DNA of 42,576 nt, from assembly GCA_022448265.1 (NCBI GenBank), contig JAKVCC010000008.1:1-42576 (forward strand), written 5' to 3'. The stretch comes from Pirellulales bacterium (GTDB taxonomy: Bacteria > Planctomycetota > Planctomycetia > Pirellulales > Lacipirellulaceae). The translations under genes were made by a program, and so were the position numbers. Below the pieces are notes generated by a model. The model saw nothing but the letters and a program-made list of their open reading frames with translations, ran no database searches and was not told the origin of the DNA. Numbering within the stretch: position 1 is the stretch's first letter; each line of letters opens with the position of its first letter. This document shows, one piece after another, positions 11,243 through 13,582 of this stretch.

Positions 11243-11449
11243 GTGCTGGTTGTATCCCGAAAAGTTGGCGAGCGCATTCTTATCGGCGACAACATTGCCG
11301 TGACCTTGGTCAAAGTGGGCAGCGGCAGCGTCCGAATTGGGATTGAGGCGCCTACCGAAATGGCGGTCATCCGAGAGGAGTTGGCTGAGCAATTGCGTCA
11401 GGCAACACAGTTGGCGATCGACGAGGCTAAACGGTCTTCGGTAGGGTAG
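11243..11449 (+). CDS. csrA: Carbon storage regulator CsrA
   Basis: The 68-aa protein begins MLVVSRKVGERILIGDNI and contains VRIGIEAPTEMAVIREEL, the full CsrA fold with the RNA-binding Arg in the conserved VxREEL region. CsrA dimers bind GGA motifs in mRNA leaders and control translation. The start is a GTG (11243-11245) with GGAG 8 bases upstream; that GGA overlaps the ribosome-binding site, so autoregulation is possible but not shown. No flagellar genes, a frequent neighbour, are present in the window. Confidence 0.96.
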   Translation: MLVVSRKVGERILIGDNIAVTLVKVGSGSVRIGIEAPTEMAVIREELAEQLRQATQLAIDEAKRSSVG

Positions 11450-11558: not shown

Positions 11559-12524
11559 CTACTTCATAACCTCTTGGTCTTCAGTAGCCTTCGCCGCCTG
11601 TTTTACCGCACTGGGCTTCTTAACGTTTCGCGGCGTTATTTCCAAACCGTGACGAACGTCCACGACATCCGGACCGCGGGCCGAATCCAGCGGGCCATAG
11701 CTAGCGACACATTGGCGCAAACGTCGAAGTTTTTCCGCCAAACCACCTTCTCCAGGGAGTCCGACGCCCGGCGCGGCACCCCAAACGATTCGCGTGCCGC
11801 CGCGCGAAATCAAATGAAAGACGTAATAGCGATGCTCGCCACGAATCTCGGGCCGGGCCGACGGGAGAATGTCGACCAGATGCAGTTCTTCCCAGGAATC
11901 AGCGAGGCAGACAGCCAGATCGGCCGCTCCCTTCACGCGCTGGTCGGCCCACCGCTGCCCTAAGGGCGGACGGGCAGCTATGCCACCAATCCGCGGCAAA
12001 TACTGCCGCCGAATGTCGGGCACGTCTTGGGGCGGCAGATGCACGGTATCTCGGTCGATAGGCACAAACTCGACACCCTGTTTGTAGGCCATCTCTACCA
12101 CCGCAACGGGTCGCCGGTAAGTCAACTCAACGTGTACCCCGGGCGGAAAACTCTTGGTTATCTTGTCTACCGATTCCACCCACGGATGCAACTCGAAGGC
12201 GTCTTTCACCACCTGCGCAAAAGTGTCGTCGAGTACCGACAGGCGCCGCTCCAGCCCAGCGTTGTGCACCACCTCCGCCCGCACGTCACCCAAAATCCAC
12301 TCGGGAAGTGGCGAAATCGTAATGCCACTGTCGGTCAGAATATATCGATCGCGGTGGATCACGGTAGGCGCCACGTGTTGCCAAACCGTGTGCAAGCCCC
12401 AGCCCAGCAAGACTACCACCGCCAGGGCTAATAGCACTCGCACTCGGGACAAAAAAGGCCCTCGCGTAGCGCCGTTCACGGTAGACGACTTGCCCCTCGA
12501 TATTTTCCTCTTCGCCTTGGCCAT
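11559..12524 (-). CDS. Putative FtsQ/DivIB-like cell-division protein (POTRA, single TM)
   Basis: The 321-aa protein has a basic cytoplasmic tail (residues 1-26), one membrane helix (about 27-48, VRVLLALAVVVLLGWGL) and an extracytoplasmic domain. Residues 61-145 follow a POTRA-like pattern: a short strand, a helix region, an HPWVESVDKITKSFPPGVHVEL segment and RRPVAVVEM, as in FtsQ/DivIB, where the motif is roughly 'P-W-V-x-x-A-x-V-x-R-x-x-P-x-x-L-x-I-x-V-x-E-R-x-P-v-A'. Its neighbour on the same strand is murB, as in classical dcw clusters. AAGGTG precedes the ATG at 12524; an upstream ATG at 12539 is less likely. Planctomycetes lack FtsZ, so a retained FtsQ-like protein would be notable. Sequence identity to FtsQ is low and the assignment is inferred. 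Confidence 0.65.
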   Translation of the reverse strand: MAKAKRKISRGKSSTVNGATRGPFLSRVRVLLALAVVVLLGWGLHTVWQHVAPTVIHRDRYILTDSGITISPLPEWILGDVRAEVVHNAGLERRLSVLDDTFAQVVKDAFELHPWVESVDKITKSFPPGVHVELTYRRPVAVVEMAYKQGVEFVPIDRDTVHLPPQDVPDIRRQYLPRIGGIAARPPLGQRWADQRVKGAADLAVCLADSWEELHLVDILPSARPEIRGEHRYYVFHLISRGGTRIVWGAAPGVGLPGEGGLAEKLRRLRQCVASYGPLDSARGPDVVDVRHGLEITPRNVKKPSAVKQAAKATEDQEVMK

Positions 12525-12703
12525 CGCAACACCTTCCATGGGTTTTCCGGCGTCAGAGGCTAGGCCAAAGCTACCAAGAGGATCTCTCTCAGCGGCTGGC
12601 TTCGCACGACTGCGATCAGCGCCAGTGGCTACCGCTTACGCCCCAGTCCTTGCGCCCCGTTCTAAACTGCCCGCGTCTCGTGCCTCATAACTGGCGGCCC
12701 TCG

Positions 12704-13582
12704 CTACCATATCTCCAATTCCGTCTCCAACTCGACCCCCAATCTTTCCGCAACTCGGCTGCGAATCATGTCGATCAAACGTAGCACGTCCTGACTGGTA
12801 GCCCCTTGGTCCGCGACCACGAAATTGGCATGGCGCTGGCTGACTTCCACGGCCCCCACGCGCGTGCCCTTGAGCCCCGCCTGATCGATTAGCGTGCCGG
12901 CGCTCATGCCACGCGGATTCTTGAAGAGACTGGCCACATTTTGATGCGACAAGGGCTGAGATGCCTTTTTAACAATCCACTGCTTTTGCATCCGCTTAGT
13001 GAGTTGCTCTGGATCATCTTCCTCCAACTGGAACTCCGCGTTGAGGATCACCAACTCGTCGAGGCTACTTTGCCGATAGGCGAATACCAGATCCTCGCGA
13101 TTGCGCTGCAGGATCTCACCTGCGCGGGTCATGACTGTGGCCCGATCGGCCCATTGGCCAATGTCGCCACCGCGACTACCCGAGTTACCGTGCAATGCCC
13201 CACCCACCGTACCCGGAATTCCAACCAGAGGCTCCAGTCCAGCCAGTCCCGCCCGGACGGTTTCGCTAATCGCGTGCGCTAGCTTCGCGCCACCGCCGGC
13301 TTGCAGCCGATGCCCTTGAACCTGGATATCGGTGAAGCCACCGCCCGTAAGACCCACGACCATCCCCGCGACTTGGTCATCGCGGATCAGCAAGTTAGAG
13401 CCACCCCCTAAAACGCGGACAGGGACTTCTTCTTCGCGACAGCGCCTGACCAGAGCGGCCAGTTCATCGACCGATTTCGGCTCTGAGTAAAACTCGGCCG
13501 CGCCTCCCAGTCTGAGCCAAGTCCGATCGGCCAACGGCTCTTGCTGGCGAACTATTTTTTCGAAGCCACTAACTAGGGTCAT
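12704..13582 (-). CDS. murB: UDP-N-acetylenolpyruvoylglucosamine reductase
   Basis: The 292-aa flavoprotein has the FAD-binding VRVLGGGSNLLIRD motif, GIPGTVGGALHGNSGSRGGDIG, YRQSSL (catalytic-region Tyr-Arg) and VASLFKNPRGMSAGTLIDQAGLKG with the catalytic Ser. It reduces UDP-GlcNAc-enolpyruvate to UDP-MurNAc in peptidoglycan synthesis, using NADPH. AAGGTG lies 8 bases before the ATG. Length matches type II MurB, and the FtsQ-like gene lies 180 bp downstream on the same strand. It supports a peptidoglycan-containing wall in this organism. Confidence 0.97.
   Translation of the reverse strand: MTLVSGFEKIVRQQEPLADRTWLRLGGAAEFYSEPKSVDELAALVRRCREEEVPVRVLGGGSNLLIRDDQVAGMVVGLTGGGFTDIQVQGHRLQAGGGAKLAHAISETVRAGLAGLEPLVGIPGTVGGALHGNSGSRGGDIGQWADRATVMTRAGEILQRNREDLVFAYRQSSLDELVILNAEFQLEEDDPEQLTKRMQKQWIVKKASQPLSHQNVASLFKNPRGMSAGTLIDQAGLKGTRVGAVEVSQRHANFVVADQGATSQDVLRLIDMIRSRVAERLGVELETELEIW

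Follow-up and report, generated by a model that had tools for sequence, protein, structure and literature searches.

In model bacteria, the recruitment of FtsK precedes that of FtsQ, which regulates FtsWI together with FtsL and FtsB. Its gene has a textbook position in the division and cell wall (dcw) cluster, in the order murC-murB-ddl-ftsQ-ftsA-ftsZ. Proteins of the FtsQ/DivIB family (COG1589; Escherichia coli FtsQ, PDB 8hhf, 2vh1, and 5z2w) contain one transmembrane helix followed by a POTRA domain and a β domain. Here we describe a member of this family in a 42,576-nucleotide stretch of DNA (the window: positions 1 to 42,576 of contig JAKVCC010000008.1, assembly GCA_022448265.1) from a Pirellulales bacterium of the Lacipirellulaceae. 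The gene at 11559-12539, which follows murB on the minus strand, is a planctomycete ftsQ, as judged from its predicted fold, from sequence profiles, and from the order of genes at other planctomycete loci. It has the architecture and cluster position of its counterparts, but it differs from them in its sequence (14-15% identity to FtsQ over aligned residues, below curated cut-offs) and in its company: neither FtsW/RodA, nor a penicillin-binding protein (PBP) transpeptidase, nor a PF00091 FtsZ was detected in the genome.

Two of the closest described systems come from relatives of this bacterium. Chlamydia trachomatis, an FtsZ-less member of the Planctomycetes-Verrucomicrobia-Chlamydiae (PVC) group, retains the FtsQ homolog Ct764, which was likewise recognized by its fold and localizes to the septum (available text of PMC4643143). 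Chlamydia also keeps FtsI, PBP2, and such late division and peptidoglycan enzymes (PMC5147048, in part), whereas the window genome yielded no PBP transpeptidase. Among planctomycetes, Planctopirus limnophila has an ftsQ assigned to COG1589, Plim_3909 (sections of PMC12283558). The FtsQ-like protein that the preliminary description of this locus saw as a survivor in planctomycetes is confirmed, but it is not a first. What appears to be new is the retention of ftsQ where its canonical partners are not detectable. Our search, which covered neither figures nor supplements, found no published statement that ftsQ is kept in Pirellulales, although the heatmap of PMC12283558 may show it for some of them. 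The accessible part of that paper's text names murB, mraW, and ftsK as the only dcw genes kept throughout the PVC group, and reports that Pirellulales, Isosphaerales, and Gemmatales have lost murA/C/D/F/G/J and ftsW.

Recognition of the gene as ftsQ

An AlphaFold2 model built from 23 sequences (mean pLDDT 85.9, pTM 0.73) predicts the FtsQ arrangement. The basic amino terminus and single hydrophobic stretch point to a bitopic protein; the model places a POTRA domain after the transmembrane helix (fold match over residues 66-143), with a β domain of the FtsQ/DivIB type behind it. All eight Foldseek matches of this model to the PDB at E ≤ 0.001 are FtsQ chains (best 4.2e-9, 8hhf). In VIA-align, the match to FtsQ in the FtsQ-FtsB structure 5z2w has Z 11.9 and a root-mean-square deviation (rmsd) of 4.8 with 189 aligned positions over residues 72-308 (71-308 for FtsQ-FtsB structures overall); that to FtsQ of the Pseudomonas aeruginosa FtsWIQBL complex (8bh1_C) has Z 10.6 over residues 139-305, and DivIB scores Z 6.3. 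The preliminary description had read a single transmembrane segment and a POTRA-like extracytoplasmic domain from the letters, and had named structure prediction as the check beforehand; the model bears out that reading, as it contains the POTRA and β domains in succession and matches FtsQ over both.

Sequence profiles point in the same direction, provided that the family rather than the single protein is compared. Five alignments were made: A1, with 33 sequences (the window protein and 32 from loci of its order), A2 (25), A3 (45, phylum-wide), A4 (12), and A5 (23). Among the 45 phylum-wide members, 13 match POTRA_1 (PF08478; best E 3.5e-6) and nine match FtsQ_DivIB_C (PF03799; best 7.2e-6) at E ≤ 0.05. 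When profile A3 is compared with all PDB sequences, E. coli FtsQ ranks first at E 8.7e-4, the next row standing at 0.18. The hhalign probability for A3 against E. coli FtsQ, the one FtsQ of another phylum in the sequence comparison, is 85.1%, and none of 16 control proteins (the window MurB and 15 further E. coli dcw-region proteins) exceeds 1.1%. Seven residues (W120, R142, P144, L168, G194, W216, and G254) are invariant in both A1 and A2. A likeness between VDVR in the window's β domain and YVDLR in E. coli FtsQ shows only in an HMMER segment that falls short of significance (-2.4 bits).

Several results weigh against this assignment. By itself the window protein passes no curated cut-off: it reaches E 0.12 and 13.1 bits against POTRA_1 (cut-off 23), and has no NCBIfam match. 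PF03799 matches neither this protein nor anything else in the window genome, a null that would, taken alone, wrongly suggest the absence of FtsQ. The order-level profile A1 yields only 28.1% against E. coli FtsQ in hhalign (best control 3.7%), and its PDB search returns no FtsQ, just two matches in the transmembrane region at E ~0.3. Measured by TM-score, the likeness to FtsQ is modest (0.33-0.38 by query, 0.44-0.55 by target, rmsd 6.3-10.3), as expected at 14-18% identity; a differing angle between the two domains may account for part of this. Across the 59 genomes of the order-level set, POTRA_1 finds matches in 15 at E ≤ 0.1, none over the cut-off, and five of the 17 matches (L065, L067, L069, L073, and L080) belong to the ftsQ family. 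A search for related loci with the single window protein gave 24 pattern matches, of which none was confirmed.

Probable remnants of a division cluster

Gene order also supports the assignment. Of the 56 order loci in which the upstream DNA suffices, 55 have murB (48 loci) or ddl (7 loci) as the next recognizable same-strand gene upstream. This set comprises 57 loci from 56 of 57 genomes; G030, which has a match, is left out, as are L058-L091 (repeats of genomes already counted, and other POTRA_1 matches). Among named loci with room, murB is directly upstream in 21 of 21. The window itself conforms: murB immediately precedes ftsQ, and no ftsA follows ftsQ there. A murC-murB-(ddl)-ftsQ cluster occurs twice (L035 and L036) in one genome, G057 (88% complete, 6% contaminated), which may be a mixed bin.

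Farther away in the phylum the cluster is fuller. Two metagenome-assembled genomes (MAGs) have the order murG-murC-murB-ddl-ftsQ-ftsA-ftsZ (L228 and L229), and L231 has the same order through ftsA. Others have mraY-ftsW-murG-murC-ddl-ftsQ (L165, L167, L168, and L170); L161, L163, and L171 contain murB as well. The gene thus lies between ddl and ftsA in L228, L229, and L231, and before ftsA in L172. The synteny in other planctomycetes that had been proposed as a check is thereby found, in the position expected of ftsQ. Some loci depart from this order: no murB, ddl, or murC lies just upstream in 13 of 46 automatically selected loci (L092-L137), seven of 20 chosen class loci, and six of 20 chosen phylum loci. 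(The sets L092-L137, L138-L157, L158-L177, and L228-L231 share genomes, and their counts are not summed.)

In L172 (5854-8163, plus strand), a divergent ftsA (TIGR01174, 137 of 175.85 bits) comes after ftsQ. The 13-kb locus gave no match to ftsZ, and G243, the genome that it comes from, lies outside the three with a PF00091 match.

Those three are exceptions to a general rule. Of the 149 phylum genomes sampled, 146 agree with the statement in the preliminary description that FtsZ is lacking in planctomycetes; the other three are MAGs (81-89% complete, 2-6% contamination), none of them among the 88 genomes of good quality. The three FtsZ proteins exceed the cut-offs of two Pfam families (Table 1) and fall below that of TIGR00065 (94-162 of 295 bits). 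In L228 and L229, ftsZ lies immediately downstream of ftsQ-ftsA within an almost complete dcw cluster, and shares its contig with a family gene that matches planctomycete profile A1 (E 1e-42 and 1e-29). This juxtaposition argues against simple contamination, without excluding contamination. Planctomycetes are usually described as FtsZ-less, and the part of PMC13315336 at hand repeats that they have no FtsZ homolog to be found; a limited literature search found no published report of one. Together, the MAGs with ftsQ-ftsA-ftsZ and the reduced loci suggest the steps by which a single phylum may have taken its dcw cluster apart.

Retention without detectable partners

The family is nearly universal among the window's relatives. 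Within the order-level set it occurs in 57 of 59 genomes (the window's own included), with all 46 good-quality genomes and all 37 genera represented; completeness is 83% and 87%, respectively, for G003 and G005, the two genomes lacking a match. With profile A1, the family is detected in 141 of 148 genomes of the class (129 of 136 of good quality) and in 123 of 149 of the phylum (76 of 88), usually as a single copy. These wider tallies rest on a profile from the window's own order, and distant misses may represent either loss or failed detection.

The partners present a different picture. In the window genome (a 3.64-Mb assembly, 97% complete, with the window on contig C78), no match was found to the PF00905 transpeptidase, PF01098 FtsW/RodA, or PF00091 tubulin/FtsZ families; the PF01098 and PF00905 searches were positive in 10 of 14 control genomes. 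FtsW/RodA is present in eight of the 59 genomes of the order and in none of the 36 from the window's family, three of which have partial, low-scoring PF00905 matches (G010, G027, and G034; 26-36 bits, cut-off 22.1). Both PF01098 and PF00905 are missing from 48 of the 59, even when four low-scoring PF00905 matches (G010, G027, G034, and G044) are counted as present, and 46 of these 48 keep ftsQ, among them every one of the 36 of good quality. For FtsB and FtsL, whose coiled coils are short and may escape such a search, PF04977 (DivIC) gives weak matches in 48 of the 59 genomes, none over the cut-off. Two Mur_ligase_M proteins were found in the window genome, a MurE-like ligase and FolC. The coupling of wall growth to division that the preliminary description envisaged is therefore doubtful here, in a nearly complete genome with no detected FtsW/RodA or PBP transpeptidase.

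The P. limnophila counterpart can probably be named. In genome G133, regarded here as P. limnophila, the family has a single member, an open reading frame (ORF) in two pieces, at 5.0233-5.0242 Mb. Its two PBP genes lie at 2.3204 and 5.2174 Mb, and are taken as Plim_1789 and Plim_4064 (locus tags from the seen part of PMC12283558); interpolation between them places Plim_3909 at ~5.020 Mb. This near coincidence means that the ortholog of the window gene is very probably Plim_3909, the gene already studied. (Plim_0010, which falls between murB and ddl by locus number, was considered and rejected, as the interpolated position favors Plim_3909.) No murB, ddl, or other match to the E. coli dcw region lies in the 13 kb around this ftsQ. 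P. limnophila differs from the window organism in keeping its two PBPs and, by the table in PMC12283558 as far as seen, FtsW, RodA, and Mur enzymes too.

What FtsQ might do without its partners

The explanation that we favor, with confidence only slightly better than even, is that this ftsQ descends from a canonical dcw cluster and now serves as a residual scaffold at the division site, perhaps with FtsK. The cluster (...murC-murB-ddl-ftsQ-ftsA-ftsZ) would have shrunk at this locus to murB-ftsQ in the Bythopirellula group of the Lacipirellulaceae. The product would be bitopic in the inner membrane, with the periplasmic POTRA and β domains serving as docking surfaces, as in FtsQ. Because the enzymes normally switched on by FtsQ-FtsL-FtsB are missing, activation of FtsWI is presumably no longer the main role. 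Instead, FtsQ might act at the bud neck, where it would dock its POTRA face onto the surviving machinery and tie envelope closure to the inner membrane and to chromosome clearance. FtsK is the most plausible putative partner because it is essential in P. limnophila; the chances of a bud-neck scaffold with this partner are near even. (FtsK is the one dcw protein reported essential in that species, and is conserved across the PVC group, according to portions of PMC10632474 and PMC12283558.) The stricter proposal, that Pirellulales FtsQ is independent of peptidoglycan synthases, a scaffold that would have outlived FtsZ, FtsW/RodA, the PBP transpeptidases, and presumably FtsA, and would help to build the bud neck, perhaps with FtsK, is tentative, its probability falling somewhat short of even.

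If this stricter proposal is correct, ftsQ would join murB, mraW, and ftsK as a dcw gene retained by most Planctomycetota, though its divergence makes it hard for orthology tools to detect. A widely kept FtsQ provides a named handle on the residual machinery with which planctomycetes divide in the absence of FtsZ. Its retention where the enzymes that it activates are not detectable suggests that FtsQ may have a role outside FtsWI.

Other explanations must be weighed against a scaffold. FtsQ might still work classically, regulating septal peptidoglycan synthesis by diverged or other enzymes, such as diverged Mur ligases, other glycosyltransferases, or L,D-transpeptidases. The aligned active-site residues of MurB, the remaining MurE-like ligase, the FtsW/RodA proteins kept by a minority of the order, and the peptidoglycan reported from planctomycetes (PMC4432640, PMC4432595, and PMC13315336, each in part) all accord with this. 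We nevertheless regard it as unlikely, given that searches effective in most control genomes detect neither FtsW/RodA nor transpeptidase here and scarcely any in the family, and that a single Mur-type ligase besides FolC was found (in searches that did not cover MurA, MraY, MurG, GT51, or L,D-transpeptidases). Alternatively, murB and ftsQ might form a conserved unit with one envelope function outside the divisome, for example with the MurB product used by an FtsQ-anchored pathway. The frequency of direct murB-ftsQ adjacency invites this idea, as does the conservation of murB where murA/C/D/F/G are reported lost (PMC12283558, text seen in part). Yet ddl intervenes in some loci and others have no murB, ddl, or murC upstream; adjacency inherited from the dcw cluster need not imply joint function; and the correlation of 0.91 between ftsQ and murB dN values over 231 sequence pairs is expected from shared ancestry. 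We give this idea little credence.

Less credible again is that ftsQ is a decaying relic without present function, and it is here that the evidence against a maintained scaffold collects. Deletion of ftsQ in P. limnophila, a species that keeps its PBPs, causes no growth or morphology phenotype, and the gene is nonessential (PMC10632474, from the available portion). Twelve of the 88 good-quality phylum genomes have no family match; one stop lies inside the matched span in five match rows of the order-level search; L148 (5735-6397) and L149 (6176-6841) lack the carboxyl-terminal half of the β domain, and L155 (5709-6377) lacks the POTRA domain, so that separate lineages seem to erode separate halves of FtsQ. 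The gene also changes faster than murB (median dN ratio 2.7). Among the 231 pairs, 30 have an ftsQ dS below 1.5, and 20 of these were listed: dN/dS is 0.31-0.77 in 17 of them, at dS 0.87-1.39 and thus near saturation. In the remaining three, those with the fewest amino-acid changes among the 20 (L218/L219, L212/L213, and L205/L206), it is 0.13, 0.05, and 0.08, respectively. These low values, the invariant residues, and the gene's presence in every good-quality genome and every genus of the order set speak against decay. Finally, there is hardly any chance that the protein belongs to another POTRA family, whether BamA/TamA-like or unclassified. Its sub-threshold POTRA_1 score would permit this, and BamA POTRA domains do match residues 66-143 of the model; but BamA matches reach at most Z 7.6, as against 11.9 for FtsQ over both domains, and cover essentially the POTRA domain alone in the best rows. 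The model contains one POTRA and an FtsQ-type β domain in 326 residues overall, rather than POTRA domains leading to an outer-membrane β barrel. With the order ddl-ftsQ-ftsA-ftsZ elsewhere in the phylum, this alternative is refuted unless model and gene order both mislead.

In one MAG, L004 (L204) has a stop codon within the transmembrane region of ftsQ, which represents either an error or a pseudogene.

Features of the locus

Both minus-strand genes of the pair noted in the preliminary description are present (Table 1), and fold, profiles, and gene order uphold its view of an FtsQ/DivIB-like gene downstream of murB. The spacing that it gave, 180 bp, agrees with the 179 bp between murB and the second ATG (Met6, MAKAK...); the gap to the first ATG is 164 bp. 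Met6 lines up with the script-chosen start in most of the A4 relatives.

Table 1. Features of the murB-ftsQ locus, and related genes at other loci
Feature	Position	Strand	Basis
ftsQ ortholog, 326 aa	11559..12539	-	ORF with homology and predicted fold; 321 aa if read from Met6 at 12524, the likely start
Single transmembrane segment, ~residues 33-53	12381..12443	-	Hydrophobic stretch by reading the sequence; model helix 29-61
POTRA domain (predicted), ~residues 66-144, conserved segment HPWV...P...V.L.YR.PVA	12108..12344	-	PF08478 below threshold at residues 109-140; POTRA folds of FtsQ and BamA match; alignment A1
FtsQ-type β domain (predicted), ~residues 145-307, conserved G.RI.WG	11619..12107	-	Fold match to FtsQ across 71-308; PF03799 in 9/45 family members
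murB, upstream partner in conserved pair	12704..13582	-	NCBIfam murB equivalog NF010480, 292.9 bits (cut-off 259)
csrA-like 68-aa ORF, convergent, downstream bound of pair	11243..11449	+	Name by reading the sequence alone
FtsZ protein	L228:6300-7463	+	PF00091 and PF12327 over cut-off
FtsZ protein	L229:1822-2976	-	PF00091 and PF12327 over cut-off
FtsZ protein	L230:541-1677	-	PF00091 and PF12327 over cut-off
MurE-like ligase, only Mur ligase besides FolC found in window genome	L239:841-2421 (G000 contig C10)		Below murE cut-off (223.7 of 257.3 bits)

Residues R170, S218, and E288 of the window MurB occupy the positions of R159, S229, and E325 of E. coli MurB, which we take to be its catalytic residues. 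Besides FolC, only the one MurE-like ligase was found in the window genome. MurB identity is 59.6-89% in the 28 loci of relatives in which murB was found.

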